This document shows, one piece after another, positions 16,783-64,000 of a DNA stretch of 64,000 bases (positions within the stretch are counted from its first letter, which is position 1; the number at the start of each line of letters is the position of its first letter). The stretch comes from Amanita rubescens (lineage: Eukaryota; Basidiomycota; Agaricomycetes; Agaricales; Amanitaceae), in the NCBI GenBank assembly GCA_015039365.1, contig WION01000194.1, forward strand, positions 39,422-103,421, given 5' to 3'. Under the pieces are notes generated by a model. The model saw only the letters and a program-made list of their open reading frames with translations, searched no databases and was not told the DNA's origin. A program made the translations under genes and the position numbers.

Positions 16783-17241
16783 AGCCCTGGAGCTACTAGG
16801 TGAGATATATTGAATGGTCATTGACTTGCACGCGCCAGCTAAGACTGGTGAATTTTTATAGCACTCCATCCAATTCGCGCGATTCTACAAATGTACATAT
16901 AGGAGTAGCCTCGATACTGTGATACATTTTTCATACGAACGTAACATGTAAAAATTAGACAGACGTATGTGATTGAAATGTGGGAAGTAAGTAGTTTGCT
17001 AAATGCGTTGAGAGTAAGTTGCGTTGTCACTTGTCTACCGTGAGATCAAACGAGACCAGCAGTCGCTCGGCCTCCGGCTCTCCGTGATCTACGTAAATCT
17101 CGCTGCTAAAAGGGTTTGGCATCATCATCGATCTTCTCGGATAGGCCGTCCAAAATGCGAATACTACTGTTTCGAAGCTCAAGGTTGCCGCATAGATACG
17201 ACTCTGCCGGGTCCCGGTGATGAGTCGAGCCCCTCCTTGAC
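16783..17241. other. intergenic between P450 copies 1 and 2
   Basis: The first part (16800-17030) is a diverged copy of the flank found after copy 2 (19610-19900): GACTTGCACG, CATCCAATTCGC, GGAGTAGCCT-GATACTGTGAT and TTTTTCATACGAACGTA recur in order. In the copy-2 flank this sequence overlaps the 3' end of the minus-strand frame 19795-20487, so a remnant of that frame is present here. The second part is the copy 2 promoter. Confidence 0.5.
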
Positions 17242-17254
17242 CGTTTTAAAAACG
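17242..17254 (+). promoter_or_regulatory. palindromic promoter element of P450 copy 2
   Basis: CGTTTTAAAAACG ends 28 bp before the ATG at 17282, embedded in TTGACCGTTTTAAAAACGTC, aligned with the elements before copies 1 and 3. Confidence 0.45.
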
Positions 17255-17281
17255 TCTTCTCACCGGTTCTTGTTGAACTTC

Positions 17282-19606: not shown

Positions 19607-19794
19607 AGCCCTGAAATTTGGTGAGATACAGTGAAGGACATTGACTTGCACGTACTAAGACTGGCAAATTTTTACTAGTAAAGCGCTACATCCAATTCGC
19701 ACGATCCTCCATCGTGCTTCACCGAGTCCAGAAAGAACTCTGGGTTGACATTATCTCCCTCTTTTAGGCAACCAGGGCTTCTTCGATGCTTCAA
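19607..19794. other. P450 copy 2 3' flank
   Basis: Short flank with words shared by the flanks of copies 1 and 3 (ACATCCAATTCGC, TTCACCGAGTC). No gene. Confidence 0.4.
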
Positions 19795-20487
19795 TTACTC
19801 TGAAAGGAGTAGCCTTGATACTGTGATATTTTTCATACGAACGTACCATGTGATTGAAAGTCTGCTGTCAGCTCGAAATGCGTTGAGCGTTGTCAATTGC
19901 CGCGTACCCCAGTGACGGACTAACTCTTTCTTTGCCACTCTGGTCACCATTTTTCTAGCGACGTTCCCTTGATGCACACTGACGTTGATCTGCACAAGCG
20001 TATGAAGTCGCAATAGTGGTGCATATACTCCGAAATTCGATTCATCGCAGTTTGAAAGAACGTAAATATACAACCAATCATACGAGAGGAGTCCAGAAGC
20101 TGAGACTCGAAGGGTTTCTTCGGTGCGTCCATGTGCCAGTACTAAGGTGACGCGCTCTGTATAACCATCTATGATGTATCGGCCTGGTTGGGCTTCGTCA
20201 TCGAGTAAGTCAAAGAATTCTCGGGTGCGGTCAATTTTGAGCCGTAGTAGGAAGTTGTCATCGGGGAGGTCCTTCCTGGGTGTGCGCAGTGATAGTGCGT
20301 AACGCGGGCCGTGTAGGTTGCCAAACGGAGGTTGCACCCTATGACCAGTGGGGATGGCCTGAAAAAAAAATCCATGGCGCCTCGATCGGTTGTTTGAAAC
20401 CATCTTGGCAACTTTTTTTACTGTCGGTTCGTCAGCACATTTCTGGCACGATCGTTTAATGCTCGGACTGCGTTCCGTTGGTGTCAT
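19795..20487 (-). CDS. uncharacterised protein between P450 copies, possibly real
   Basis: A single open frame of 230 residues opposite to the P450s. The start MTPTERSPSIKRSCQKCADE is followed by a middle part with a regular alternation that looks folded (GPRYALSLRTPRKDL, NFLLRLKIDRTREFF, GRYIIDGYTERVTLVLAHG, LLSYDWLYIYVLSNC). I do not recognise the family. No signal peptide, membrane segment or catalytic motif is clear. Pieces of the same sequence recur beside the other P450 copies: its first codons near 14100-14180, its last part near 16830-17030, and a diverged version at 23513-23752 (FYTLVHIN versus LHTLVQIN). It was therefore duplicated with the P450 genes and only this copy stayed open. 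Length and repeated association argue for a former or present gene, but expression evidence is needed. Confidence 0.45.
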   Translation of the reverse strand: MTPTERSPSIKRSCQKCADEPTVKKVAKMVSNNRSRRHGFFFQAIPTGHRVQPPFGNLHGPRYALSLRTPRKDLPDDNFLLRLKIDRTREFFDLLDDEAQPGRYIIDGYTERVTLVLAHGRTEETLRVSASGLLSYDWLYIYVLSNCDESNFGVYAPLLRLHTLVQINVSVHQGNVARKMVTRVAKKELVRHWGTRQLTTLNAFRADSRLSITWYVRMKNITVSRLLLSE

Positions 20488-20821
20488 CTGTCCATCAGCG
20501 TTGCAACGCGCGGGCGGCGTTATTATGTCACGGCGATGACAATTGAATATTGAATATTGATTGACCGTAACTAGATCTCAGTGTCATCTTTATAGTGTAC
20601 GCTATACTCTGCTATACTGTACGAAGGCTGGTACGTGTTCAAGACCTCCGGCATGTCCGAACCTGGTAACGCTAACTAAGTTATTTACAGGATGAGTCAA
20701 CATGCATTGCTAAAAGTGAGTATGACGTCGTCATTTATAGAACTTTCCGAAGATTACAGCATGTAGATCCGAATCTGCTACTGCGATGCGCGTTTCAGAG
20801 ACGGCGAGCCCGCACCTTGAC

Positions 20822-20833
20822 CGTTCTTAAACG
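20822..20833 (+). promoter_or_regulatory. palindrome-like promoter element of P450 copy 3
   Basis: CGTTCTTAAACG ends 28 bp before the ATG at 20861; arms are shortened (CGTT/AACG) compared with copies 1 and 2. Confidence 0.4.
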
Positions 20834-20860
20834 TCTTCATGGCGGTTCTTGTTTAACTTC

Positions 20861-23214
20861 ATGTTATCCTCCGTGATTGAGCTCGCTCCGGTTTGTCTTG
20901 CGGTGTGGTTGGTGAGCGTCTTGTATCGCCAATGGACGCTGGTTCGCGATACTCTGAGAGATATTGGGTGAGTTACAGTGGTAGTGTGCCGTCGGGATTG
21001 ACTTGACGAAGTACTGGCAATGTAGGGATGTACCTGGAAAAGGAATCGCCTGGATACGCCCAGACAGTATGGCTTCGATGGTTGCTGCACCTTGGTTCCC
21101 CAGGCCTGGAGACACAGGTCATTATTTTGGAAAGTTCTCAGGTATGTTACTCGACATCCAAGACTCGGACTTGAAAGAGTGCTGCATGCTGATGCTATCG
21201 CAGTGTTCAAGAAGTACGGAACGACGTGTTTGTCATCGGTTTCTTTCTGGGCATCTACCCCGGTTTATTTTGTATCCGATGCTGATGCGTTTCGAGTTAT
21301 CAACAATGAGCGGGAGGTATTTAAGAAGGATGTCGAGTCGGTGAGTGACATCAGGATTTCTCCAGGGGTGATGTGCCAACACTTTTTGATCAAATGGAAA
21401 GTTCGAGCCGATCAATGTTTATGGAAAGAATATCGTCTCGACGACGGGGAGTGAGTGGAAAAGGCATAGAACGGTGGTCAGGAATGCGTTCAATGAGGTA
21501 GATCGATCGCCGGTACCCGCTTCGTTATTATATTGATGCTCAGATCTTTAGGCCAATAACGCCTATGTATGGGCAGAAACATGTAGAATCATAAACCAGT
21601 GGTTTTCTACTGTAGACGCCAGACCGGGACAACATATCGATTGTCTGAGCGTATTCACTCAGGCATGTTTTTCCTCCCCTATGCATGTTCGGAGAAGTAG
21701 CTCACGATGAGAATAAAGATTGCATTTCTCGTTATTGCTTCTGCCGGTTTTGGAGCGAAAATCGATTTCAACGATTCTCTTGACCTGACCGCTGCGCCGG
21801 TCATAGACAAAGAATATACACGCGACTCGGTGAAACCGATGTACACGTTTGGAAGCTCCCTTACGACGGCTGCCCAAGGAGTCAAAATCCGCGCTCTGAC
21901 GCCTGCTTTTGCTTACCCAATCGTGAAATACATACGTATCCCATTCATTTCACGCATCCTGGAAGAGACTGTGACAGGCTTTGGCTCGCTCAAGATGCAT
22001 ATGCAGGAGATTATATCCAATGCCCGGGATGCATTTCTCAGTAAACAAGCTGAGAAAGACTACGGATCCCGATCGAACTCAGCTAGGAATGATGGCGCGG
22101 ACGCGGCTTTGCTAAGGAATCTCGTGCAATCTAACATAAACGAGGAATCCGGAGGTTGTAGATTAACGGATGATGAGATTGTGTCCGATACATTTGTGAG
22201 TGGTAGCTAACGCAATTTCGTCCTTTGCGCTGATTTAGAGGTAGCTCTTCCTGGTAGCGGGCCATGGTAAGATAAAATTTTCGTGAACGTCGAGGGATCA
22301 AGGTGCTAATGCTAAATTTAATTGGAAAGAAACTACGGCTCGCGTGCTCTGTTACATGGTTTGTTTGCTTGCTCTGCATCCCGAAGCACAGTCCAAGGTG
22401 TATGCCGAAGCTTGCAAGTTATGGCCGGAGGTACCTTCGCTCGATGCACCTCCTGTGCGTGTTTCGCTCAGCAGATGGTAGACTCAATTGCTTAATCACA
22501 ATTTCAGGAGTATAAAAACCCATTGTCCCATCTTGTGCGTATCGAACATCCTTTTGCATTGGACTATAGCCGATTCACATGGCAGGAATACACCACCGCA
22601 GTGTTTTATGAGTCTATGCGTTTATTTTCACCGGTGATTCGACTAATGAAAACGGCCTTTTCGGATACCATCCTCAGAACTCGTCGGTTCACTACCAACA
22701 CAGATGGCTCATTGGACAATGTGGAAGTGGTAAACACACCTATCAAGGCTGGGAGCGTAATGGTGTTAGACATAAACGGGCTGCATTATAATCGTAAGTG
22801 TTATTTATATGCTAGGGCGATTTGGTACAAACATCAATGCAGCAATTCACTGGGGTGAAGATGTTGACAAGTTCAAGCCTGAACGTTTTATCGACACCGA
22901 AACGTACAAGTGGCCCCGAGATGCATGTACGTCCATTAACACGCTTATCAATGTCTTGACTACAACATCGAGTAGTCTCCGGATTCTCTCAAGGTCAGAG
23001 GAGCTGCATTGGGCAGCGTTTCGCGGTAACGGAGGTGACTTGTATTGTTGCTAATTTGGTCCGTCGATATGAAATCTTAGTTCCTGCCAACTTGGAGTCG
23101 AAGCCGAAAATAGAGCAGGAGAAGGAATTATTAGAGTGTGCACTAAATTTGACGATTACCCCAAAGAATGCGCGGGTGCGACTGAGAAAGAGGGTAACCA
23201 AGCGTGGCGCTTAG
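20861..23214 (+). CDS. cytochrome P450, tandem copy 3
   Basis: Same gene structure and start (MLSSVIELAPVCLAVWLVSVLY) as copy 2, and nearly identical to it through exon 2. Motifs: WKRHR, LFLVAGHETTARV (I helix), YESMRLFSPV, KPERFID, FSGFSQGQRSCIGQRF. The GC-donor intron at 21663-21700 is 38 nt. Intron 7, inside the I helix after AGH, carries an insertion (GAACGTCGAGGGATC) compared with copies 1 and 2. Intron 9 (22535-22585) is 51 nt and stop-free, as in copy 1. All exons read through, so the gene appears functional. Confidence 0.86.
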
Positions 23215-24137
23215 ACCGCTGGAATTCGGTGAGCGATACTGAAAGGATATTGACTTGCATGTGCTAAGACTGGTGCATTCTTATAGTACTACATCCAATT
23301 CGCGCGATTCCACATCGTCATTCGGCACACACTGCTTGTTTTCTGCTTCACGGAGTCACCAAGAACTTTGGGTCGTTGGTAATCCCTCATTATCCCGTTG
23401 TCTCTTGGGCCAGGCCTTTTCAAATGCTTCATTTGTGTAATGCCCTGCTTCCGAAAGTACATTTGATTGCAAATATACTATGATATTTTCCTACGGACGT
23501 ATCGTGTAAAAATTAGACCCATGAATGTGATTGTAAAGTAGTGACAGAGCCGCAACTCACCCAAAATGCCTCAACGCATCTTCCAACCTCACACTCTTTG
23601 CCACTCCCGGTTTGTGGCGATCTTCCCTTGATGCCTATCGCGACGTTCAAGAAATTGATGTGCACAAGCGTATAAAATCGTACTCTGATATTCATTGCAG
23701 AATGTAGCGTCTTATATCGTGAAAAAGAACGATGGCAGAACGAATAAACCAATCAATATCACAAGACGGAATCGGCATCAATGGACAACTGTGCACGCGG
23801 AGAAAATTTTCAGTTCATGAGGCTGACAGCGCTGATGCAGATGCGTCACGCTGATCGTACCACATATGGTTCCTGTGAACTCTGGACAGTGGACCCTGTT
23901 ATCTGAGGAGACAGAACATGCATATGGATTGCTTTCCGCCGTTGTGGTTGATACTCGCGTGGGATTACATAGCGATAGTACTAAGTGCCGTGTATGTTTT
24001 TAATCAAGTGCTTATTCCAATTTCCGAGTCGTCTGATTCTTGTACTCTTTAAGCATTGATAGGGATTTGATGAGATGCCAACCAAACAGCATCCGAGTCC
24101 GTCTTATTAGTGTTCCCGAATAGGACCACCATCGCCC
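23215..24137. other. intergenic between P450 copies 3 and 4, with relic of the small minus-strand frame
   Basis: 23215-23510 repeats the P450 3' flank (CTACATCCAATTCGCGCGATT, TCACGGAGTCAC..AAGAACT..GGGT). 23513-23752 on the minus strand carries a diverged, shortened relative of the 19795-20487 frame. The remaining 400 bp upstream of copy 4 lack the palindromic element seen before copies 1-3. Confidence 0.45.
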
Positions 24138-26450
24138 ATGTCCTCTGTGCTAAAGATCGTTCCAGCGTTCTTGGTGGTGTGGCTGATTGGCAAGCTGGTA
24201 TCGGTTCGAAATGTGCTGAGGGACCTTGGGTGAGTGCCGTCATCGGTATACCGCAAATGAAGAGCCAACAGCAGTGACAGTGACGTCCCTGGGAAGGCCA
24301 TCGTCTGGCTACACCCCTTCTACCCAGCTGCCCTCCTCGCAGCGGCTTGGTTCCCCAGGCCAGGAAACATAGGATACTATTCGGGCAGGTTCTCGCGTGC
24401 GTTCACTTGCCCTCGTTGGCGTCCGGCTGGCTGGGTTTTGTGTAAACAAGGGCGTACTGATCACTTTCGCAGTGTTCAGGAAATACGGTAGCACCTGCTT
24501 ATCGTCGGTGTATTTCTGGTCGTCTACTCCGACCTATTTCGTATCCGATGCTGATGCGTTCCGGTTCATCAACAACGAGCGCCGGTTGTTTGAAAAGGAT
24601 ATTGATGCTGTGAGTAATATTCACTTTGTTACGGACCTGCAATTTGATGAACGCCATTGCACGACGAAGTATGAGCCGCTCAATGTTTACGGCAAGAACA
24701 TTGTATCGACCACGGGAGGCGAGTGGAAAAGGCATAGAGCAGTGGCCAAGAATGCCTTTAACGAAGTGCGACTTGATATTTCGACTGGCTTTTCTAGCTT
24801 CTCAATGTTTTCTCCAGGCAAACAACGCCTACGTATGGGCGGAAACATGTAGAATCATGAACCAGTGGTTCTCCACTTTCCAATCCAAGTCAGAGATACC
24901 CATCGAGTGCCTGGGTGTATTCAAGCAGGCAAGTTTTCTCCACTATCCTTCTCATGGGTAGCTGACAATGGCCAAGATCGCTTTTCTCGTTATTGCTTCT
25001 GCCGGGTTTGGCGCAAAGATGGACTACAATGACTCCCTTGACCTGACCGACGCGCCTGTCATAGACCATGAATTCGCACCTGGCTCGACCAAACCCATGT
25101 ACACATTTGGAAGCTCCCTCACGACGGCTATGCATAGGTTTTTTGTTCGCACCCTCTCTCCCCATTTCATCTATCCCATCGCGAAGTACATCCGTATTCC
25201 ATTCCTTTCCCCCGTGTTGGAGGAGACCGAGATAAGCTTTGACTCGCTCAAGTCGCACATGGAAAACATCATATCTCATCAACGAGATACATTGTTCAGT
25301 GAACGCGCCAAGAATCAGGCGGATGCATCCAAGTACAAAGACGTGGGCGCGGCTCTCCTAAGGAATCTTGTGGAATCTAATATGGATGAGGAATCCGGAG
25401 GCAATCGGCTAACGGATGACGAGATTATATCCGATACTTTTGTAAGCTATGGCTGATGTCTTTCCGTGCGTCAAACTGATCCAGAGATAGGTATTCTTGC
25501 TTGCAGGCCATGGTAAGACGACTGCTTCTGAGTATACGAGAATACGTGAAGCTGATCATATCTGTAAAGAAACCACGGCCCACACACTCTGTTTTGCGCT
25601 TTGTTTGCTTGCTATGCATCCTGAAGCACAAGCCAGTGCGCATGCGGAAGTATGCCGGCTATGGCCTGAGGCTCCTCCTTCACTTGAGATACCTTCTGTA
25701 CGCGTCTTACCCCGTAAATGGAAGCGTTACTAATGATTAAATCAAGGAATACAAAGACTGCATGCCTCACCTTGTGGGTTTTAGCTTATTCTTATTGGGT
25801 TATGAGTGAATTACTTGATTATGCAGGAATACGTCACTGCGGTTTTTCATGAGACCCTACGATTATTCTCATCCGTGCCGCGACTTGGGAAGCGCGTTTT
25901 CTCGGATACAGTCATTAGGACCCGTCGGTTTACCACGAATCCAGATGGCACTTTGGATAAAGTGAAAGTGGTTAACTCACCTATCAAGGCTGGAAGTGTG
26001 GTCGTGCTAGATGTTCATGGAATGCATTATAACCGTACGTAATGGGTGGAATGCAAGGCGAACTCACATGACGTTTCTTTAGCTATCCATTGGGGAGAAG
26101 ACGTTGACAAATTCAGACCGGAGCGCTTCATCGATACGGAGGCATACAAATGGCCCCGGGATGCATGTACGTCCATCGATCTTTTCCAATGCTTTGATTA
26201 TAACGTCCTCGCAGTCGCTGGATTCTCTCAAGGACAACGGAGTTGCATTGGCCAACGTTTCGCAATAACGGAAGCGACCTGCGCCCTTGCCAACTTAATC
26301 CGTCGATACGAGATTTTACTTCCAACTCACTTGGAGTCGAAGCCAAGAGCTGAGCAAGAGAAGGAACTTTCGGAGTGGACGCCATACGTGACAATCATTC
26401 CAAAGAACGCACGGGTGCGATTGAGAAGGAGGGCGTCTGGAGCTGACTGA
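24138..26450 (+). CDS. cytochrome P450, tandem copy 4 (most diverged)
   Basis: Same 12-exon layout as copies 1-3, but GC-richer and more diverged. The first exon is shorter (MSSVLKIVPAFLVVWLIGKL, anchor). Motifs: WKRHR, LLAGHETTAH, HETLRLFSSV (ExxR), RPERFID, FAGFSQGQRSCIGQRF. The fifth intron (24929-24961) has the best GC donor of the set, CAG|GCAAGT, and is 33 nt; read-through would hit TAG at its end, so it must be removed. A later in-phase acceptor 15 nt downstream would give 48 nt. Intron 9 (53 nt) is clearly non-coding here, and that is what proved the stop-free versions in copies 1 and 3 to be introns. Probably the oldest copy or the one under a different constraint. Confidence 0.87.
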
Positions 26451-41626: not shown

Positions 41627-43281
41627 CTATTTATTACGACACGTTCGGAATATCAAATGCAAACTCTTTATTATCCTAGGCCCTGTTCGCTGCTTGGGCC
41701 CGTCATAATGTCCCCTGCCATGCCATGTACATCGACCGCTCTCCCAAGAATTCCCGCCCAATAATGCGGTAGCGAGATCCCGATTTCTTTTCCGGCAGCG
41801 TATGAGATCATACAGCTCATCTACGCAAAGTTGTGCTTGATGATAGTGGTTCTTGTATTTACCGGTTTTGAAGTATAGTCTACATTCATCAAGGATAGCG
41901 AATGTTGCTTGTTGTACATCTTTGGCAGCTGCATTCTGCTTGTCGCTCATCATCAGAAGCCGAACAATTTCAAATGTCCCTATGAGATATCTGCCGCTCG
42001 CGAGCCTATTCCGTGCTAGTGTCAACAATCGGCACGCCAGATTTATTGAAAAACGTGCTATCACGAGAACGTTAATATAAGATATTGAAGATAAAGAAGG
42101 GGAGTTACTGGGTTCAAGCCTGCCATGCGACTCCAAATCAGAGAGGCAAAGGTAAATCGAGACCACAAGCTCCGAAGTTTTTTTTATCTTCGGATTTGAA
42201 TCGATCCAAACGAGAGCATCGGCGAGAAGTACGTCTATGGCACCGATGTTATTGGGGTGGGAGAAATTGAAGCAATCTTGTTCTAGCCAATCTCTGGAGG
42301 CCAGCGCTTGCGGCACTAGCGTCCGAAGAGATATAGGTTTGAGCGGTGGAAGACTGAGCCCCCGGCATGTTGAACGTTCTGATCCCTGACTGAAACGTCT
42401 AAAAGATGTTAAGCGGAGTAAAAAAGAGAAGAATTGAATGGACCCACCTGAAAAACGGCCAGGACAACTGGCAATTGAAGGGGGAAGAAGAGGATAAGCC
42501 ACGTCGTCCAAAGAGCGACAAAAACAAAACGATGACGCTCGAGGTGCAAATGACAACGTGCAAATCAGGGTGGTCCAGTGCCTGTAAAAACAACATTACA
42601 CCAGAGAGAGAAAGTATGGTGGCGGTGAGTGTCATCCAATGAATAGAATCGCAGGCAGCGAAAATTCTGCATCTGCGTAAAGAGTTATAGCGCATCTGAC
42701 GGAAAGCTAGCAAGCGTTTGACGCTGAATTGAGGGCGATTCATAAATTCTTGAAAACAGCGTCGGCACAGACAGCATATTAATAGCGTGGAACCCGTCAG
42801 AAAAAGGGACGAAAACCACAGTGCATTAATGATTACCGCCATTCGATATGGGAGGAATGGGGGATGACCATCCGGACACAACATATTGGCGATGTAGCTG
42901 TTTTGGTTGAAGACCAATCTGTACGAGTCAAGAATGACCGGTACAAGGATGCAAGAAATAATGAATGCCTTTATGACATCTATGAACTCCCATACGAAGA
43001 GCTAAACAAAAGATGCTTACATTTTCGTATTGGCGGTCCAAATCGTTCTCCCTCTGTGCGTACGCTGCACGATCAGCGTTTTCCACCACTTCGTACAGAT
43101 GGTACCAATGATCTAAAGCGTGTTGTTGCGAATGCAAGGCATCGTAGTTAACTCCGCATTTTCGTGCAGTAGTCGTGGGATACTGAGGCGAACGTTCATA
43201 ATCATCTCCGGGTAGCATAGGCATATATGATTGAGACTTGGCGGACGTCTCGGGGTGAGGGACTCGCTCAGCCTTGATCAT
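41627..43281 (-). pseudogene. DUF6535-like gene with frameshift (array copy A)
   Basis: N-terminal exon 43281 to about 43000 (HWYHLYEVVENADRAAYAQR), a 34-nt intron, then the membrane region (INALWFSSLFLTGSTLLICC; LSLSGVMLFLQAL; VIVLFLSLF). At about 42419-42426 a T6 tract gives one base more than in the intact copy, and the frame ends in a stop (HSILLFFTPLNIF). Coding potential continues in the next frame (LLRLTSFRRFSQGSERSTCRG through the WLEQDCFNFSHPN and WIDSNPKIKKTSELVVSIY segments). The segment equivalent to DYGPHVARRG..HVERIPHRSG is missing. Probably inactive. Confidence 0.65.
42986..43019 (-). other. 34-nt intron in array copy A
   Basis: Donor GTAAGC after QYEN and acceptor GGGAG before FIDVIKAF; boundaries approximate to a few bases. 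The intact copy has the same 34-nt intron. Confidence 0.45.
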
Positions 43282-43640
43282 ACCCTTTTAACCCGCCCGG
43301 TGGCAAGGCTCAATAACAACTGCAGTAGCGGTCCCACGCCACATATGCTATAATATTGCTGTAGGGAAAACATGATGCCTTTGAACATGGAGGCTCAGAG
43401 CACAGCTCATTCTATTCTTATCCTCATACGATTAGGGATGAAGAAACTGAAGTAGAATTATTGGTAATCGTCAACCATTACAGCTATGCTCATATAATGG
43501 CACTATGACGACTTCTACACCAACAACGTAAATTGGTTTGCTAAAATTCAATGAAACGAAAACGAGTGCAACAGGAACGGAACGATGACATACGCCACAT
43601 TGGGAAGATTAGATACAAACTCATTAGCACAAGCATCGGG

Positions 43641-45634
43641 TCATGTCCACTGCTGCAATGAATGCTCACCGTGTGAAGAAACGTCGACCTCCGTGGATGA
43701 TCCTGATGGAACAATGGAATCTCGTGGCGAATTACTGTATGTTGGGTTCCGCATCATGCCCCTTGCCATGTTATGCACATAGTTCGCTTTCCCAAGAAAT
43801 TCCGCCCAATGATTCGGTAACGATTGCTTGAACTTTTCTGCAGCATGTATGAAATCGCGTAGTTCATCTGCGCAAAGTTGCGCTTGATGACAGTGATCCT
43901 CGTATTTAACGACTTTGAAGAATCTTCTGCATTCTTCAAGGACGGCGAACATCGCCTGTTGCACGTGGGAACTTTTGACAGCCATTCTTAGCTTGTTGTC
44001 CATAAGAAGGCGGAAAATTTTAAATGTCCCTCTGAGGTATCTGCCGCTCGCGAGGCCGCTCCGTGACAAGGTCAATATTTTGCATAGGGAATTAGTAATC
44101 GTAAGATGTTCTATTAGGAGAACGTTAGAATATGATTTGAAAGTCAAAAGGTAACTTACCGCTTGGAACCCTGTCTTGCATATTTGTCTCGCCACGCGAC
44201 GTGTCGCCTGACCTATGAGGCATTCTCTCGACGTGGATCTCCAACCAGAGCTCTGACGCCAAAGCACGGGCATTGTCGTTATCCAACCGTTGTCTCTCTG
44301 CAACTTCATGGAACATTGCAGTGGGCCCGCGCCGCGCTACGTGAGGTCCATAATCCAAGTGCGCAAAAACGTTGGGCGACTCCAAATCAGAGATGCAAAA
44401 GTATATCGATGCAATAAGCTCCGAAGTTTTCTCGATCGTCGGATTTGAATCGATCCAAACGAGAGCATCAACAAGAAGTACGTCTATGGCGACGTTATTG
44501 GGGTGGAAGAAGTTGGAACAATCTTGTTCTAGCCAATCTCCGGAGGCCAGCGCTAGCTTCTGAAGAGATATAGGTTCGAGCGGCGGAAGACCGAATTCCC
44601 GGCGCGTTGAACGTTCTGGTCCTTGTTTGGAACGTCCATAAGATGCCAAGCGGAGCAGAAAGAGAAGAATTGAATGGCCCCATTGGAAAAACAACCAGGA
44701 CAACTGACAATTGAAGGGGGGAAACGTGTAAAAGCCGTGCCGTGCGAAAAGCGACGAAAAGAATGGGTACAACGCTATAACCAGGAAGAAAAACACGAAA
44801 ATGCTTAAGACAATGATGACAATGTGCAAATCAGGATGGCCGAGTGCCTGGAAAAGTATGATCACACCAAAAAAAGGAAAGTAGGACAGCAAGAGGTATC
44901 ATCAAATGGATCCCATCGCAGATAGCGAAAATTTTGCACCTGCGCAATGAGTTATAGCGCATCTGACGGAAAGCTAGCAAGTGTTTCACGTCGAATTGAG
45001 GGCGATTCATAAATTCTTGAAGACAGCGCTGGTACAGACAGCATATCATTAGCGTGGATCCCGTCAAAAGGAGGGACGAAAACCACAGTGCATTAATGAT
45101 TACTGCCGTTCGATATGGGAGAAATGGAGGATGACAATCCGGACACAACATATTGACGATGTAGCTGTTTTGGTTGAAGACCATTCTGTGCGAATCAAGA
45201 ATGACCGGTAGAAGGAAGCCAGAAAGAACGAATGCCTTTATAGTATCTATGAACTCCCTGGGAATATGAAGAGTTAAACAAAAGATGCTTACAATGCCGT
45301 ATTGACGGTCCAAATCGTTCTTTCTCTGTTCGCACACTGGACGATCGGCTTGGTTCACCACTTCGTACACGTGATTCCAGTGACTCGGATTTGCGGCGTG
45401 TGATTTCAGAGGTAAGGTCTCGTGGTTAAACTCATATCGAGTCCGCGCGGGAGACGCGCTCAGAGGATAGACTACTGAGAACGTTTCGGGGTGAGGTACA
45501 GCTGGGGACGCGCTCAGCCAATTTATCTTCCCTTTGATATAATCAGTCGTTGGCTGTCCCACGGGACATTTGATCATTTGCTGTAATATTGCTGTGCGTA
45601 AAGCATGATGCTGGAGGCCCAGAGCACTGCCCAT
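43641..45634 (-). pseudogene. DUF6535-like gene with frameshift (array copy B)
   Basis: Close relative of the intact copy C. The upstream frame covers the N-terminus (HWNHVYEVVNQADRPVCEQR), the membrane helices INALWFSSLLLTGSTLMICC and the linker FRQMRYNSLRRCKIFAICD. At about 44868-44880 the tract CCAAAAAAAGG (plus strand) carries one base more than in copy C, and the reading shifts to the frame FGVIILFQALGHPDLHIVII onward. The rest (WLEQDCSNFFHPNN, WIDSNPTIEKTSELIASIY, DYGPHVARRG, and the C-terminal FAVLEECRRFFKVVKYEDH) is well preserved. A single-base event in a homopolymer suggests very recent inactivation or a sequencing error. Confidence 0.65.
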
Positions 45635-47195
45635 CTATTACCCTCATACAAATAGAGATGACGAAACTGAAGTAGAATCACTGGTAAGCGATAATCGTTA
45701 CAACTATTATGAAAAGGCACTGCTTGGCAAGTATGGGCCCTTTCCTTCCGAAGTTGCCTGTTCAGTGTTGATCAACCTGTTCTTGACTGCAAAAGGGGTG
45801 AGTTGCGTCTCTTATTCAGCTTTATGTGGTACTTGAACTATAAATTGCACGCGTCAGTTCTAGGAATCAGAGAGTAGGAAAGGAGAGCACTACGCAACAA
45901 ATCTACCCAACGACGCATGTTTCGGATTGAGACGGACCATTCGTGGTTGTGAGGCATTGGCCTTCTCCCTCTTCGTCCACCCCTTCAGTGGGCGCAAAAG
46001 TTGAGGCATTGGCGGGTCGGATGCTAGACGGTCCAGAGTGGGCGGGATCTTGGGTTTCAGAAGCAACGTCTATGAGTAGGGTCAAAACCCATATGCGTGC
46101 AAGGTCAGGGTCAGATAATAACAGGAAGAAAAGGTGGATTGAGACTCACATATTGTCCCATCGTTGTCCATATGGTATTGCCATCCTCATCCTCGCCCTC
46201 ACCCTCGTTGCTACACTAATCCCCATCCTCCTCTTCATCTACGACACCCCCAATATCTTGAGCAACGTTGATCAAGTTCCCATGTCTCATTCATATTTGC
46301 CTCTATCGAATACCTCGCTGCAGAGCGGAACAGGTAATCCAGGACAATCCTATGCGGTGAAATGTCCTCTGGGTTGAGCTCTCGTTGCAGAGGGTGTTGG
46401 TTTGGGCTGTGAGGAGCAGGAGGGACCCCTTCATCGAGCGAATCGCTTGAAAAGGGATCAGTGCTGGCACCTGGAGAGGAAGGGGTTCTCTCCCTTTCCG
46501 TTGGGGGTGGGAAGGTGAGGGATGCTGTAACTGAGAGGTTGGGTTACGGGGAGGAAGAGGCCGTAGAGTCATTGTTCTGTGAGGTAGCGTATATTGTAGA
46601 CTATCATCCTCGCTGGGATCCACATTTGTTGTTAAGACGTCGGCCCGAGTTGCTTTCAATAAATACGAGTTTGTGAAAGAGCCGCACGGTTTCAGTCAAC
46701 TCCCATTCAAGTCGTCAACGATGGAGGGAGGATTTCCTTCTCGATTCCTCCGGGGACGATGATCCATGGGTCGAACGTGCGCAAATGATCCACCAGGCCT
46801 GGTGGGTTCCGCGGGACGATGAGAAGTGGATAGACTAGACGGGTGTCGGATAAGGAAGAACCGAAGGAGGATTGCGAGTACTCCAGCCATCACGGTGGTG
46901 GGAAAAGTGGAGCAACGGTTCTTACTATATGACTCCATGGCCTCTTGCAGCATGCATTATGTTGAGAAACTGCTGCTTCCAGTTGTCTGGTAAACACGCG
47001 TGAAGCATACTTTATTTGGCAAGACGAAAACCAGCGACGCTTCTATTCTATTGTTACGCCGGAATGATGGCTATACTAGTACAGCGAAGGTCTCGACGAT
47101 CACTATTTACTAAGACTTTGCATACAAAAGAAATGAGAACGACGCGTAATGGAAGCGGAGCGATGACATGCGCCGCAAACTCGTTAACACAAGCA
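45635..47195. other. region of uncertain coding status
   Basis: Both strands hold gene-like pieces and I cannot decide. On the minus strand, exon-like pieces include ESYSKNRCSTFPTTVMAGVL with a Pro/Arg-rich follow-up (46710-46940), ETVRLFHKLVFIESNSGRRL (about 46620-46700), EGEGEDEDGNTIWTTMGQY with a GTGAGT donor (about 46146-46200), and an acidic Ser-rich last exon ending at 45903. On the plus strand, 46174-46242 encodes a strong hydrophobic helix (GIAILILALTLVATLIPILL). The minus-strand chain needs a stop codon (TAG at about 46212) to be bypassed, so it looks like a decayed gene. Confidence 0.3.
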
Positions 47196-49025
47196 TCAAG
47201 TCATGCTACAACATGAATATTCAACGTCGACCATCGTGGATGACCTTGATGGAACAATAGAATTTCGTGGCGAATTACTGTATGTTGGGTTCCGCATCAT
47301 GCCCCTTGCCATATTATACACAGAGTCCGCTTTCCCAAGAAATTCCGCCCAATGATTCGGTAGCGATTGCTTGGACTTTTCTGCAGCATGTATGAAATCG
47401 CGTAGTTCATCTGCGCAAAGCTGCGCTTGGTGACACTGATCCTTGTATTTAACGACTTTGAAGAATCGTCTGCATTCTTCAAGGACGGCGAACATCGCCT
47501 GTTGCACATGGGGACTTTTGACAGCCATTCTTAGCTTGTCGTCCATAAGAAGGCGAAGAATTGGAAATGTCCCTCTGAGATATCTGCCGTCCGCGAGGCC
47601 GCTCCGTGACGAGATCAACAGTTTGCACAGGGCATTAGCAGTCGTAAGATATTCTATCAGGAGAATGTTAGAATGTGATATTGAACGTCAAAAGGTAACT
47701 TACCGCTTGGAAACCTGCCTTGTATGTTTGTTTCGTTATGCGAAGTGACGCCTGACCTATGAGGAATTCTCTCGACGTGATTCTCCAACCAGAGCATTGA
47801 CGCCAAAGCACGGGCATCGTCGTTATCCGATCGTTGTCTATTCGCAACTTCATGGAATATTGCAGCGAGCCCGCGCCGCGCTACGTGAGGTCCATAATCC
47901 AAGCGCGCAAAAACGTTGGGCGACTCCAAATCACAGATGCAAAAGTATATCGAGGCCATAAGCTCCGAAGTTTTCTCGATTGTCGGATTTGAATCGATCC
48001 AAATGAGAGCATCAACAAGAAGTACGTCTATGGCATCGACGTTATTGGGGTGGAAGAAGTTGGAACAATCTTGTTCCAGCCAATCTCCAGAGGCCAGCGC
48101 TTGCGGCACTAGCTTCCGAAGAGATATAGGTTCGAGCGGAGGAAGACCGAATTCCTGGCGCATTGAACGTTCTGGTCCTTGTTTGGAACATCCATAAGAT
48201 ACCAAGCGGAGCAAGAAGAGAAGAATTGAATGACCCCATTGGAAAAACAACCAGGACAGCTGGCAATTGAAGGGGGAAAACGTGTAAAAGCCATGCCGTG
48301 CGAAAAGCGACGAAAAGAATGGGTACAACGCTATAACCAGGAAGAAAAACACGAAAATGCTTAAGACAATGATGATAATGTGCAAATCAGGATGGCCGAG
48401 TGCCTGGAAAAGTATGATCACACCAAAAAAAGAAAGTAGGACAGCAAGAGGTATCATCAAATGGACCACATCGCAGATAGCAAAAATTTTGCACCTGCGT
48501 AAGGAGTTATAGCGCATCTGACGGAAAGCTAGCAAGTGTTTGACGTCGAATTGAGGGCGATTCATAAATTCTTGAAGACAGCGCCGGCACAGACAGCATA
48601 TCATTAGCGTGGATCCCGTCAAAAGGAGGGACGAAAACCACAGCGCATTAATGATTACTGCCGTTCGATATGGGAGGAATGGGGGATGACCTTCCGGACA
48701 CAACATACTGGCAATGTAGCTGTTGTGGTTGAAGATCATTCTGTACGAGTCGAGAATGACCGGAACAAGGAAGCCGGAAAGACAGAGTGCCTTAATAGCA
48801 TCTATGAACTCCCATACGAAGAGTTAAACAAAAGATGCTTACAATTTCGTATTGGCGGTCCAAATCGTTCTTTCTCTGTTCGCACACTGCACGATCGGCG
48901 TTTCCCACCACTTCGTACGCGTGGTTCCAAGGGGTTAGCTGCGAATGCATAGCATCGCAGTTAACCCCGTATCGTCGTGCTCTATGTCGGGACGAATATT
49001 CTTGGTTGTCATTGCTAGGTGGCAT
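47196..49025 (-). CDS. DUF6535-like multi-pass membrane protein (array copy C, intact)
   Basis: Three exons: 48843-49025, 47704-48808 and 47196-47653; 1746 nt, 581 residues. The start MPPSNDNQEYSS precedes a WNHAYEVVGNADRAVCEQR segment. Membrane helices follow: FIDAIKALCLSGFLVPVIL, INALWFSSLLLTGSTLMICC, LMIPLAVLLSFFGVIILFQ, and LHIIIIVLSIFVFFFLVIAL. The W-F-x-S-L helix, the R-QMRYNSLRRC linker and the following LxxSFFGVIILF helix are the hallmark order of the DUF6535 family of mushrooms. The soluble C-terminal half (WLEQDCSNFFHPN, IWIDSNPTIEKTSEL, FAVLEECRRFFKVV) has no known function. The first intron is only 34 nt (48809-48842). It is the only unbroken member among at least five related segments. 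Confidence 0.8.
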
Positions 49026-58435: not shown

Positions 58436-61400
58436 ATGGCAGCTACAACTGCCAGTGCACCTTCTTTGAGTAGGCTACTATGTGACTTGACATTGCTAAT
58501 CCTTGACTGACACATAGTATCAGATGCAGATGAGACACATGTTCAAATGCTCAGGGAGCGCTATCTATGCCCACACTTTCGCATCCTTGTCATTGGGAGG
58601 GCTAATGCAGGCAAGACAACCATCCTTGAGAAGGTCTGTGGTGTATCAAAGGGGACAAAGCCCATTATACATGACAAGGATGGTAAGTTGGTCTGAGTTT
58701 TGTGCTTCCTTGACTGTTGAGTTTTTTGCAGGTAATCAGCTTGAACAGTCTGTGTTTCATTTGATGCCATCACTTGAGGTGGGTTGGATAATGATGTCAT
58801 GTATGGATGTACCCATTCACATGTAATGATAACAGAGAGGCTTGCATGATATTGAGCATCAAATTACATACCCTAGAAGTAACTTTATCTTCCATGACTC
58901 TCAGGGTTTTGAATCTGGTTCAACTGAGGAATTGGAGATTGTTTGGAAGTTCATTGCAAAGAAGTCTGCAGAAACTGAGCTGAAAAACCAGCTGCATGCA
59001 ATTTGGTATATTGATTTATCCTTTTACATTACTGGCTGATCTGGCTTCCTCTAGGTACTGTATACCTATGGATAGCCCTCGTCCCATTCTACCTGCAGAA
59101 CTTGAATTCTTTAATCAAGGGACAGGCAGAGGCAAGTCCTAGTGAATTTGTATCTCTTCTTGTAACTTGTTGATTTTGGAGAATTGTTTACCCTTAACTA
59201 TTGTTACCTCTTTCCATTTGCCAACTTGCCACAAAATCTACTAGTACTGACTAGGAAATATTTTTTTACAGTTCCTTTGGTGGCTATATTCACCAAATTT
59301 GATGGTCAAATAGCCAGTGAATTTGTCAACTTGACTGAAGCAATGGATGAAGATAAATGGGAGAGAGCCAGGAAAGTTGCTGAAATCACTTTTCAGAAAG
59401 TTTATCTTCCTAAGGTTTTGGAAGCCAAATATCCTCCCAGGACATATGTGCAATTGGAAGGTGAGAATGATGAGGATTTCTTCCTGAAAAATTGGAGTAG
59501 TGTTGCTTCATAGACATGGATTTACCAGAGAAGAATTGTGCTGAATTAACTCAGCAAACTGCTGATGCAATAGATGATTACAGCATACATCAGCTGTTTG
59601 TTTCAACACAGATGAATAATCTTGACCTTTGTGTCAAATCTGCAATTCAGTGAGGGTCACATTCAAAATGTCAATTACATCATTGACATTGTTTAGACAT
59701 GTTCTGAAATATGATTATTGGACATGGGATGATGTCATTTCCATAGTTTTGTCAAAATTTCCACATTTCTGGGTATGCATTTTGTCAAACTGCACATCAG
59801 CATAGGGAAATATGAATTGCAATAGGTGGACAGGGTGGTAGGTGACCTTCATATGGAATAATAAATACTTGCAAAAAGTTCATCAGGAGGTAAGTAACAC
59901 TCCAATGCCTTCATATGAAAACAAGATTAGTCATGCTTCAGATGGTCAATGAACAACTGAGTGAACCACAAGTTAGTTGTCATGGTCATGATATTCTTGG
60001 TGGTAAGATCTGATGAGTCATGATACTGATACCAGTGGGTAAGAAACATTGAACTAGTAGTATAGACTCATCTGATATATTGTCTCATGACAACAGTTTG
60101 TGAGTAATGGTTCCTTTGTCATTAGTAATCTTGTCCAATAATCTATAGGAAGTGAGTGGCTTAGTAACTTTTGGTGAATGATCCTATGATGGTGCTTTAT
60201 GTACATATACTATAATAGAAAGTGAGTCAATCTATCATTGTAAGTAGACTTGCCAATCCAGCCTCTTGTGGACAGACAGTGAGTAATACTTATGTATACA
60301 ACATTGTTTCACACCACATCTGACCTGCTTAAAGAAAGTAAGCAACATTGGTGTTTGTGCAGCTTATCAGGTGACATAACTCAATGAACATCAGAAAGTT
60401 GGTGGCATACTATCATCTGAAAGAGAATACATTTCACTGGATTAATAACAGGAAGTAAGTGACATTTCCTCTGTCTGCTTATAGACATTGTGTACATCTT
60501 GTCCAAAAATGACAGACAGTAAATATTTCTCCTTTTCAAAGCCTCTTCACAACCCAAGCAATTGCAAAACAAACAGGATGTATGTGATCCTTTTATGAGG
60601 TGAATTCATCAAATGAAGTACTATGGCAAAAGAAAGTCAGTGGTATTGTTTTTTTTTCAAACTCATCATGCTAATTCATTCTAACAGGAAGTGAGTGATG
60701 CTGGCCACTCTGCTACAGGCAATTTGGATACATTCTTTTGTTCTACAGATTGTGAGCAACATTGCAAGTTTGTGAAAAGCAGTAAATCACATCTTTTCCT
60801 ATACATAGGAGGTTAGCAGCATATCATGCCAATTTAGTGGTTCAAAAGATGACCTTATCAAAATTTTGCCTATGGCCAATAGCATGTGAGTAGCATTGCA
60901 AACATTTCTTTTCTACATATGTATTTTTCCCCATGGCTGACAGGATGTGAACAACATTGAAGTTTTTTGTGGAAGGCAGTCTCATCACATGACTAACAGG
61001 GAGTGAGAGTGACATTGCACCTTTGGTGAAAGGCAGTCTCATGATTATTTTTTCCTATGACCAACAGCGAGTGAGTGACATTGCACATTTTGTGGAAGGC
61101 AGTCTCATCACATGTTTTGATATGATGAACAGGGAGTGAGTGACATTGCACATTTTTGTGAAAGGCAGTCTCATCACATCTTTTCCTATGACCAACAGTT
61201 GGTGAGTGATATCATTGCATATTTTGTGAAAGGCAGTCTTTTCCTGTAACCAACAGCAAGTGAGTGACATGGCACAATTTGTGAAAGGCAGTCTCATCAC
61301 ATCTTTTCCCATGACCAACAGCGAGTGAGTGAGGTTGCACATTTTGTGAAAGGCAGTCTCATTACATCTTTTCCTATGACCAACAGCGGGTGAATAACAT

Positions 61401-63004
61401 TTTCATATTTAAGGCAGTCTCATCACATCATTTTTTGCTATGACCAACAGGGAGTGAGTGACATTGCACCTTTTGTGAAAGGCAATCTCATCCCATCTGT
61501 TCCTCTGTCCAACAGCGAGTGAGTGAGATTCAAGCACATTTTGTGAAAGGCAGTCTCATTACATCTTTTCCTACTATGATCAACAGTTTGTGAGTGAGAT
61601 TGCACATTTTGTGAAACTTTGGCAATGGTCTCATCACATCTTTTCCTATGACCAACAGGTTGTGAGTGACATTGTGCATTTTGTGAATTGTAGTCTCATC
61701 AAATCTTGTCTTATAACCAACAGGTTGTGAGTGACATTGCACATTTTCTGAATGACAGTCTCATCACTTCTTTTCCTATGACCAACAGCCTGTGAGTGGC
61801 ATTGCACATTTTGTGAAAGGCAGTCTCATCACATAATTTCCTACATACATATGACCAACAGCTAGTGAGTGAGATTGCACATTTTGTGAAAGGCAGTCTC
61901 ATCACATCTCTTCCTATGACCAACAGCGAGTGAGTGACACATTTTGTGAAAGGCAGTCTTACATATTTTTCCATGGCCAACAGTTTGTGAGTGACATTGT
62001 ACATTTTGTGAGAGGCAGTCTCATGACTCTCATCACATCTTTTCCTATTATATGACCAACAACAGCAAGTGAGTGACATTGTGCATTTTGTGAAAGGTCT
62101 CATCACATATTTCCCTATGACCAACAGTTTGTGAGTGATATTACACATTTGTGAGAGGCAGTCTCATCACTTCTTTTCCTATTGAACAGGTTGTGAGTGA
62201 CATTGCACATATTGTGAAAGGCAGTCTCATTACATCTTTCCCTACAACCTACAGCAAGTGAGTGACAGTGCAAATTTTGTGAAAGGCAGTCTCATCACAT
62301 CCTTTCCCATGAGCAGCAGTCTGTGAGTGACATTGTAAATTTCCTGACCTGCATTCTCAGCATACCTCAATTCATGAATGTTTGATATGTCCATTGCATC
62401 CTATGTATATCAGAAAGTGAGTGTGTTGCCATATGTTTTCCATGTTTTCCTTTTACATTATTCTCATCATAGATTGTGAGCTTTCATTTCCACTGACTCA
62501 TTCCCACCTCATGTCTCTCCTTTCCCTGATTTCCAGGTGAGTGATATTGGTTCATAGAGGCATTGATTTTTACATCAGTTTGCTTGCTAGTTTGTAGGTC
62601 TGATGACCCACATTGGACATTTTACTATGTGTACTATCTCATACATAACTAGCATGAACTTTTCTCAATGTTTGGAGACAAGCAATGGATCAAGTTTGCA
62701 GTCAAGGTTTTTTCTTTTTCTTTTTTGGGTAGTACACAACTGATGCCATTGCAACAAGCCTACTGATTGCCAGGTCTTAGTTTGTAAATTATTCCTTTTC
62801 ATTTACTTTAAATACTTAAACTTTCAAGCAATTATTGTCATTGCCAAGCTATCCTTTTGGATCAATAAACCATTTCTGCCATCAGTCATAGAAGCCTTGG
62901 ATCAATACAAGCAAAAAGGTTATGTCCAGAAGCTGAAGACTGGTATTACTCTGGACTTGATGCACTCTGGTCATCAAGATTTTGTCACATTACTCTATAG
63001 GCAG
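58436..63004 (+). CDS. P-loop GTPase with an array of putative single-codon exons
   Basis: Exons 58436-58469, 58518-58682, 58732-58778, 58836-59005, 59055-59131, 59272-59460 and 59514-59649 join in phase. FRILVIGRANAGKTTILEKV is the G1/Walker A loop, FIFHDSQGFESGS the G3 loop, and PLVAIFTKFDGQIASEF the G4 motif (TKFD for TKxD). The segment DMDLPEKNCAELTQQTADAI and FVSTQMNNLDLCVKSAI follow, as in the mushroom-specific G-domain family. A later exon, 62892-63004 (ALDQYKQKGYVQKLKTGI, HSGHQDFVTLLYRQ), looks like the C-terminal part of the same protein. Between them lie 3.2 kb of intron-like modules separated by triplets, described as its own entry. The fifth intron (59132-59271) has a GC donor, GAG|GCAAGT. 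The true 3' end is unknown. Function is unknown beyond nucleotide binding. Confidence 0.8.
59887..62475 (+). repeat. array of ~40 intron-like modules separated by single triplets
   Basis: Reading through, ...AG|NNN|GTRAGT... recurs about 41 times. Triplets lie, for example, at 59887, 60036, 60097, 60149, 60219, 60276, 60335, 60452, 60516, 60577, 60688, 60749, 60809, 60883, 60944, 61000, 61068, 61133, 61199, 61257, 61322, 61387, 61451, 61516, 61587, 61659, 61724, 61789, 61862, 61927, 61984, 62066, 62128, 62190, 62255, 62320, 62414 and 62473. The spacing between AG and GT is exactly 3 nt in each. Module lengths are 49-79 nt except near the ends. The triplets differ (CGA, GGA, TTG, CAA, CGG, TTT, GTT, CCT, CTA, TCT, GAA, AAA, ACA, GAT...), while AG and GTGAGT hardly vary. 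A few modules have weaker donors (GTCAAT at 59945, GTTGGT at 60398). Confidence 0.8.
60947..62340 (+). repeat. homogenised 62-nt minisatellite core of the intron array
   Basis: Within the array, about 22 units are near copies of one sequence: GTGAGTGACATTGCACATTT, then TGTGAAAGGCAGTCTCATCA, CATCTTTTCCTATGACCAAC and AG plus a triplet. Unit length is mostly 62 nt with indels from 53 to 79. The unit contains a donor, a TATGAC-type candidate branch site and the acceptor. Confidence 0.9.
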
Positions 63005-63677
63005 GTGACTCACATTGATGGTATGTCACACTTTGTCTAGTCATGGACTACTTATGAGGAGTTTTTGGCAGAGTGAAACACACAGCATGGTAGGTGGTTT
63101 ATTCCTTTGCATTGATATCATATTTACTTGTAGATCACTTATAAAATCTTGATCATATTTACCTTCTAGCCTTTTCATTTACTCTGTGTATCAATATCCT
63201 TTCTTGCCTAGCTGATGAAAACCATTTCAATGCTGTAACAACATTTATTGTTGTCTTCCATGTAAATATCCAGTTTCCAACCTCCCTGGTCCCATGTAAA
63301 TACTCTCTTGAGTCTCTCCTGATTTCTGACTTTTCTGAGTGTATGATCATGCTTAATCCTGACATGTGATTGTTGCAACTGTCACCTCTTCAACACTAAC
63401 CTGTTATATGCCAGGGATATCAGTGGTCTCAGCAGCTGTCCCTTGCAATGCCTGAACTGGGTGTGATTGAGGTCATGAATGATTGTCCAGCAAATAATGT
63501 GTTCAGAGATAATGACAAAAAGAATCTTATAACTTTACTTGTCAGGAGTGTGGGCCACCACTCAGTCCTCTCAAGGTCTTTTCCCAAGAGAGGTGGGGGA
63601 ATAAAAAGCTCAAGTAAAATACTAAGGCACTGGAAGTTGTTTTATGGATGTAGAACAGAATATTATTCTACCAGTTA
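63005..63677. other. 3' region of the GTPase gene, not resolved
   Basis: A donor (CAG|GTGACT) follows the exon ending at 63004. Further exon-like pieces, for example an open stretch from about 63415 (WSQQLSLAMPELGVIEVMND), cannot be placed in frame with confidence. The kinase-like gene on the minus strand converges at 63678. Confidence 0.35.
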
Positions 63678-64000
63678 TTACCAAACCCCTGCACAAGCCC
63701 CTGCTCTGATGTTCTGCTCAAGTTTTTTAAGCATGTGAAGGTCATGAGCTTATCCATTATTGCCAATGGCCCAACACCACTTGCCCACTCAATCACATCA
63801 CCAATGATGAATGGGTATCGGTCCTCCCCATGAACACCACACCAATCATAGTCAACCAATTTCATATCATCACCATTGACAAGGATATTAGGTGTTCGCA
63901 AATCACCAAAGACCAGGTTCTTGGCATGCAGAAGTTCTATTGCTTTTTTCACTGATGTGATAATGGTATCCAGACAACTCCAGGGTGGACGTGGTGATGA
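63678..64000 (-). pseudogene. atypical protein kinase-like gene, C-terminal part, one-base frameshift
   Basis: It enters from the right edge. The minus strand reads AIELLHAKNLVFGDLRTPNI, then MKLVDYDWCGVHGEDRYPFI and IEWASGVGPLAIMDK. This is the catalytic-loop and metal-loop region of an atypical kinase-like family of mushrooms: GDLRTPN stands where HRDLKPN is usual, and DYDW stands for DFG. The frame stops matching after IMDK. The neighbouring frame gives AHDLHMLKKLEQ, the usual family continuation, and stops at 63678-63680, so one base is missing around 63748-63753. Whether the gene is active, and what its N-terminal lobe looks like, lies outside the window. Confidence 0.6.

Follow-up and report, generated by a model that had tools for sequence, protein, structure and literature searches.

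Can a run of nucleotide triplets, each enclosed between an intron acceptor (AG) and an intron donor (GT), be a row of exons that contribute one codon apiece? The question is raised by a GTPase-like gene located at positions 58436-63037 (plus strand, with a TAG stop codon at 63038) of a 64,000-nucleotide (nt) stretch of the Amanita rubescens genome, referred to here as the window (G000:C106:39422-103421; the assembly comprises 75.7 Mb in 786 contigs). An earlier note on this DNA had placed about 40 putative one-codon exons between the exons of a GTPase gene, and this could be confirmed. The spliced model, fitted to a protein assembled from the gene's own exons, comprises 54 exons and 53 introns, with 41 exons of exactly 3 nt, thirty-nine of which are consecutive (60036-62475). 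It is very probable that each of these forms one messenger RNA (mRNA) codon of a linker between a GTPase-like core and C-terminal helices, with ratchet-like splicing and a minisatellite as the proposed accompanying account.

Between the segments ..SKFPHFW and HELFSMFG.. of the predicted protein, exons of 12, 3 and 30 nt are followed by the thirty-nine exons of 3 nt and by one further 3-nt exon. The introns separating the thirty-nine are 49-91 nt long, while the exons bordering the array are also small (12, 30, 54 and 25 nt). The first one-codon exon (GAG, E; 59887..59889; junction list and model) stands alone. The array then begins with an older part of sixteen one-codon exons (W F E K T K K E T D K E I E H D; 60036..60946) with mostly diverged introns of 49-71 nt, continues with a younger part of twenty-one (G R G L Q R R G R F V V P L R F Q F V Q S; 61000..62322) with near-identical introns of mostly ~62 nt, which form a 65-base pair (bp) minisatellite, and closes with AAA (K, 62414) and ATT (I, 62473), which span 62414..62475 and are supported by the junction list and the model. 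The last one-codon exon (TTT, F; 62591..62593) follows a 115-nt intron and is placed by the model and by the position of IFHELF opposite ILPELF of the homolog P0014.

The junction spacing was compared across 38 loci by searching for chains of at least four AG|N|GT junctions. A spacing of 3 nt yielded 410 sites in chains, the longest of 27, while no chains were found in these loci at spacings of 0, 1, 2, 4, 5, 6, 8 or 9 nt. The 26 chain sites at 7 nt arise because GTGAGTGA holds a second GT, and the 229 sites on the reverse strand of the same loci (longest 21) because the loci were left unturned and minus-strand gene arrays are present there. No chain sites remained after one shuffle per locus. 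A whole-genome pattern consisting of a one-codon exon, an intron with a branch-site-like word and a second one-codon exon matched 1043 times (597 + 446), against three matches with 4-nt exons, none with 6-nt exons and none in the reversed control. The plain chain finder adds one junction in the window gene, ATG at 59942, which is actually the start of the 30-nt exon. A chance repeat is ruled out by the spacing controls, the shuffles and the stop count given below, and an oddity of a single gene by the arrays of the sister genes.

The proposal of the same note that each triplet is both an exon and a codon is supported by triplet-peptide homology, an intron-free contig of a sister gene, the near-absence of stop codons and conservation among paralogs. 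P0116 (295 amino acids) is encoded by a public intron-free contig of 1107 bp, and was aligned to 4.7 kb of genomic sequence (C46:12651-17389) as 68 exons. Fifty-nine of these are of one codon, with 58/59 of their residues and 286/295 residues overall identical, and the array incorporates one further exon of 9 nt. Similarly, P0021 was fitted to contig C737 with 46 one-codon exons (32 identical), where the model includes two 15-nt pieces inside the array, and P0023 (478 amino acids; contig of 1486 bases) to C1 with 47 one-codon exons (38 identical). At their C-terminal ends, the C1, C737 and C46b models are provisional. Ten jgi proteins were tried, and the other seven reach little of an array or fit no fetched locus well. 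P0017 (18/33 one-codon identities on C1) and P0050 (1/17 on its best locus) also match no fetched locus closely. A contig without room for these introns derives from either RNA or a retrocopy, of which an RNA origin is far likelier. The splicing of one-codon exons in sister genes is thus well supported if the contigs represent complementary DNA (cDNA), and from this we infer that the window gene's own triplets are spliced likewise.

Homology extends to the window peptide itself. Among the 120 listed of 1162 homologs, P0003 (..NEQLSETKWFEKGKKESDREIEYDG..) and P0020 (..NKQLSEAQWFEHGKKDTDKQIVYDG..) carry related residues at the linker position. Aligned with these, the triplet peptide attains scores of 81 (P0003) and 71 (P0020), while the maxima in 500 shuffles of triplet order were 41 and 43, respectively, and 200 shuffles across all 120 listed homologs reached at most 48. 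The remaining 118 listed homologs score 42 or less. A score of 42 was obtained for P0116 and P0021, which share a WF..A......ER.F/Y motif at the same position as the window, and for P0027, where the match lies within the G domain and looks like chance.

Codon statistics were drawn from 53 distinct chains with 668 distinct one-codon exons (the window and loci L001-L045), the loci having been picked by pattern or by G-domain match and not as a random sample. One stop codon occurs among the 668 exons, against 45.8 expected from position-wise composition. An in-frame TAA triplet lies in one chain shared by L006 and L007 (C1:69559-73730); it is likely the sole stop among the 668, and this copy is perhaps decaying. 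The third base is C in 0.3 % of the one-codon exons, against 14.8 % in the long exons of the window gene, as would be expected if C beside the GT harms the donor, given that the third base is also the last exon base before it. Intron lengths fill all three classes modulo 3 (179, 220 and 221), with a median of 58 nt. GTGAGT (320) and GTAAGT (93) are found as donors among the 668, and 666/668 acceptors are CAG, TAG or AAG, these shares being biased upward by a finder that demands AG and GT and gives preference to splice sites resembling those of the window. The array introns have the GT (or GC) donor, AG acceptor and fungal-typical length of spliceosomal (U2-type) introns. Two contigs, C106 and C650, both carry the window gene and differ at one of 5562 bases; the difference, at 61388, falls inside a triplet (CGG or CAG, R to Q), which as a single case gives a hint of selection. 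The AlphaFold model of P0014 has a mean predicted local distance difference test score (pLDDT) of 64.3, with values below 50 at residues 293-361, the linker, and a short helix at 306-318, which suggests that the linker may be disordered.

Arrays of this kind are spread across a gene family. An exon-by-exon protein search of the genome with the G domain gave at least 324 matches, 150 candidates having been scored out of 778. Nineteen sequences, comprising the window and eighteen sister loci, a few of them near-duplicates, were fitted to a linker-start guide. All nineteen contain at least ten one-codon exons, and 18/19 a recognisable WF..GKK.. start; the fit to L011 breaks at the linker start, where a guide-free chain has FEQGK and MDREIVYDGRR. 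Across the nineteen sequences, introns that share a codon position have an identity of 0.77 (n=2150), and those that do not 0.59 (n=34387); the array thus predates these gene copies. Guide-free chains comprise 55 (C737), 55 (C209) and 56 (C170) one-codon exons, with a few gaps of 107-124 nt in which a weak site may be missed. The arrays of close paralogs hold 55 (C209), 56 (C170) and at least 61 codons (C46b, which ends with the fetched stretch). The strict genome pattern recalls 15/200 one-codon exons in four arrays, and at that recall its 1043 matches would, by rough extrapolation, correspond to an order of ten thousand one-codon exons, in an assembly that includes duplicate contigs such as C106 and C650. 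Long one-codon chains also occur in L043 (C31), L044 (C26) and L045 (C2), which were chosen from the pattern list and for which no G-domain match is listed; their genes may belong to this family as distant members, or to another.

Several observations weigh against one-codon splicing of the window triplets. The scores of P0116, P0021 and P0023 against these triplets (42, 42 and 37) were attained in 1, 3 and 10 of the 500 shuffles, respectively, and are individually not significant, while P0003 and P0020 agree with the window over only about 17 to 23 codons and not in their tails. A protein search with residues 285-438 (linker and C-terminus) returned no match at E ≤10 among the 73 candidates scored. 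The deposited protein P0002 stops short of the array, and no linker is present in the sister protein P0065; deposited gene models such as these need not rest on RNA. The jgi records are silent on cDNA status, which is deduced from the contigs being intron-free and far shorter than the gene, and the best contigs match sister genes, with a few differences (9/295 residues for P0116 and a larger number for P0021 and P0023). Because the splice alignment follows the protein, the 61-residue linker of P0116 was shuffled 60 times as a control, which gave means of 27 one-codon exons and 11.5 identities, and at most 21 identities. The order of splicing, the cause of the codon variability and the tolerance of errors, all discussed below, are likewise inferred.

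How might such an array have arisen? Introns 17-36 of the window array follow a common consensus, their body columns being on average 0.84 identical with 0/54 columns below 0.45, whereas identity among the intervening triplets ranges from 0.28 to 0.41, not far above the random expectation of 0.26. Near-identical introns of ~62 nt thus flank different codons. In the window, this young intron family was found by nhmmer (E<1) inside the array alone, and elsewhere it was seen in the arrays of sister genes. The part with young introns is also where both the length and the sequence of the peptide vary between close paralogs (window ..HDGRGLQRRGRF.., C209 ..EYEQGEERGGLLLHERQ.., C170 ..QRGQGQGRLLLQRG..), while the first ~13 codons, and in C209 and C170 the C-terminus too, are conserved among them. 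None of the 240 codons beside young-type introns in six arrays is a stop, against 12.7 expected, the inclusion threshold for this set being loose enough for older introns to be mixed in. These features point to a 65-bp minisatellite of which ~62 bp of each copy would be spliced out, such that each repeat would provide one amino acid. Within the unit, the codon varies most, which indicates selection on codons, homogenisation of introns, or both. Gain or loss of units would shift the linker length by whole amino acids, and the loss or skipping of any unit would keep the frame.

Introns may instead have been inserted singly between the codons of an ordinary exon, by introner-like gain, without the intron and codon growing as a unit. 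This origin is possible but unlikely. In its favour, the 93 of 4945 intron pairs in the six arrays that are at least 0.95 identical flank triplets that are 0.50 (upstream) and 0.42 (downstream) identical, as if the introns spread largely without their codons. Under a stricter choice in three arrays, six pairs at 0.95 flank triplets 0.28 and 0.17 identical. The values of 0.50 and 0.42 nevertheless lie slightly above the averages of 0.36 and 0.37. Random insertion should also have left exons of 6, 9 and 12 nt and mixed phases, whereas 6-nt exons gave no genome matches and the C46 array has a single 9-nt exon among 59 of 3 nt; furthermore, codon number varies between close paralogs where the young introns sit, and within the window the intron family was found in the array alone (E<1). 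On the basis of the uniform 3-nt spacing, the lack of 6-nt exons in the genome pattern search and the differences in unit number, unit duplication is placed first and intron insertion after it. The weak coupling of codon and intron would still require something more, be it codon selection, intron homogenisation or intron insertion between codons.

Exons this short are expected to be skipped, as both splice sites cannot be bound simultaneously, and short fungal introns are recognised as units. Sequential splicing from 5' to 3' is the likely mechanism for the array. If introns were removed co-transcriptionally in this order, the upstream intron would leave first and the triplet would join the end of a growing long exon; the next donor would then adjoin an exon of normal length, and repetition would add one codon per step. 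Since the two splice sites of a triplet would never be recognised together, a 3-base exon would pose no steric problem. The process would resemble recursive (ratchet) splicing, but with three bases retained at each step. Strong donors, mostly GTGAGT or GTAAGT, could help where the exon side is an arbitrary codon. Errors may be tolerated, given that skipping keeps the frame and that the linker is predicted at low confidence, as disordered segments often are.

The triplets could also be exons whose inclusion varies from molecule to molecule, so that one gene would provide many linkers, a combinatorial idea that the earlier note had raised conditionally. All of these exons are of 3 nt and any subset remains in frame, and the alignment of P0023 to the C1 gene contains a one-residue gap within the array, which skipping or plain divergence could explain. 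Variable inclusion is nonetheless improbable, in that P0116 holds 59/59 of the one-codon exons and the WFEQGKKETDREI stretch is kept in recognisable form in 18/19 of the fitted sequences. Far less probable is the removal of the array as one or a few long introns, with the triplets normally skipped and the AG-NNN-GT junctions mere leftovers. The deposited P0002 model and the linker-less P0065 would agree with such removal, but the intron-free contig contains all 59 one-codon exons of its gene, a single stop is found in 668 triplets, and the triplets match homologous residues. A non-coding minisatellite or decayed pseudogene that mimics splice sites by chance, for which the 65-bp tandem repeat of the 3' half of the array might speak, has a negligible probability and is in effect refuted by the peptide homology, the P0116 contig and the stop count, while the older half keeps exact spacing and conserved codons despite its diverged introns, shuffled loci are without chains, and the long exons are open.

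The long exons of the window gene, all on the plus strand, support a GTPase-like product. Exons 1-7 (58436-58469, 58518-58682, 58732-58778, 58836-59005, 59055-59131, 59272-59460 and 59514-59649) are based on homology to P0001, P0002 and P0003 and on the model, and the N-terminus they encode, MAATTASAPS.., runs into a GTP-binding motif. The donor of exon 5, at 59132, is GC (gcaagt), and the deposited P0002 sets this junction elsewhere, which gives it extra residues. This A. rubescens protein (277 amino acids) is the window gene cut short at KSAIQ, and is 96 % identical over the covered part. The window protein scores 19.3 bits against Pfam MMR_HSR1 (PF01926), under the curated cut-off of 21.9, while some sister proteins carry the domain in precomputed annotation, and "GTPase-like" is thus the safe name.

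Exon 8 (..HVLKYDYWTWDDVISIVLSKFPHFW; 59697..59772) was placed by tblastn with P0001 and by the model. The 12-nt exon (VDRV; 59826..59837) matches VDR/VGR of P0003 and P0020, and the 30-nt exon (MVNEQLSEPQ; 59942..59971) TNEQLSETK of P0003 and MANKQLSEAQ of P0020, both in addition to the model. An alternative in which 59890-60035 would use a GTAAGA donor at 60003 was rejected, as that exon would not be a multiple of three, while 59942-59971 with a GTTAGT donor fits P0003 and P0020. Downstream of the array, the model places a 54-nt exon (HELFSMFGDKQWIKFAVK; 62653..62706; donor gttttt) and a 25-nt exon (PTDCQVLV+; 62759..62783), with counterparts of 48-54 nt and 25 nt, respectively, in C209, C170 and C46. 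The last exon (..IIVIAKLSFWINKPF.. to TAG; 62829..63037) is supported by tblastn with P0014 and P0017 and by the model. A zero-length exon at 62536|62537 (TTCCAG|GTGAGT) was discarded as unnecessary; sister genes likewise have a long intron here, for example of 115 nt in C46. At 62530-62542 (tttccag|gtgagt), within the 115-nt intron, an acceptor abuts a strong donor and resembles a zero-length recursive splice site.

In the available portions of the open-licence papers searched, isolated 1-nt and 3-nt exons and micro-exon-rich genes were found and a row of one-codon exons was not, though a description may exist elsewhere; none of the open-licence papers combined Amanita with microexons. The chemistry of this architecture would be ordinary spliceosomal splicing. 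The micro-exon genes (MEGs) of Schistosoma are reported to have exons of 3 to 81 bp and introns of up to 5 kbp, and to encode secreted proteins (PMC10526429). The window gene, with its 41 one-codon exons, likewise combines many very short exons in one gene, but its array introns are 49-91 nt rather than long. The short exons of MEGs are each a multiple of 3 nt, as are the one-codon exons of the window gene. Nearly every array exon here, however, consists of a single codon; these exons stand in rows of at least 39, and their introns, ~58 nt long, are in part near-identical. Splicing of single-nucleotide exons is described for Arabidopsis APC11 (PMC4674806) and Fusarium CYP621A (PMC12940212). 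These too are far under the usual minimum, but one isolated tiny exon occurs per gene, whereas here dozens occur in a row. In recursive (ratchet-point) splicing, one intron is removed in segments (PMC5126111, PMC6110457). The logic proposed here, in which a donor is regenerated at the junction at each step, is similar. We know of no recursive splicing in which a codon is left behind at each step.

Introner-like elements are near-identical introns dispersed over different genes. Together with stwintrons, which are nested introns, they exemplify related introns that multiply within a fungal genome (PMC4457414, PMC8469720). In the present family, by contrast, the introns lie in tandem with one codon between copies. 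The bicycle genes of aphids have many small exons, which are not single codons. They form a fast-evolving family recognised through its gene structure (PMC9168663), a feature that the family described here shares.

Elsewhere in the window, several repeated open frames form a tandem cluster at 14646-26450 (plus strand), which we take to resemble cytochrome P450 genes. On the minus strand, at 41627-48823, long open frames rich in hydrophobic stretches occur as three similar sets and form a tandem family, likely of membrane proteins, and a minus-strand reading frame at 63740-64000, interrupted by the window end, presumably resembles a protein kinase catalytic loop.

The recognition of adjacent spliceosome binding may be hindered when an exon is too small (PMC4674806). 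If the one-codon reading is correct, the short-exon rule would become directly testable on genes with rows of 39 to 59 such exons joined in order, which would serve as natural reporters of the order, speed and fidelity of successive splicing. With 53 introns, 59 % of messages would be intact at an efficiency of 99 % per intron, and 7 % at 95 %. The one-codon reading would also account for the many deposited Amanita proteins of this family that stop near the array, and would be a warning that gene finders may miss such exons elsewhere. For the protein, it would mean that length is varied by single amino acids with the frame never broken. A whole gene family of this genome, with very likely thousands of one-codon exons, might, on a tentative and rather doubtful reading, write its linker one residue per 65-bp unit, with the number of units setting the length and the codon, which alone enters the protein, outpacing the intron in its evolution, as in a recognition surface under diversifying selection.

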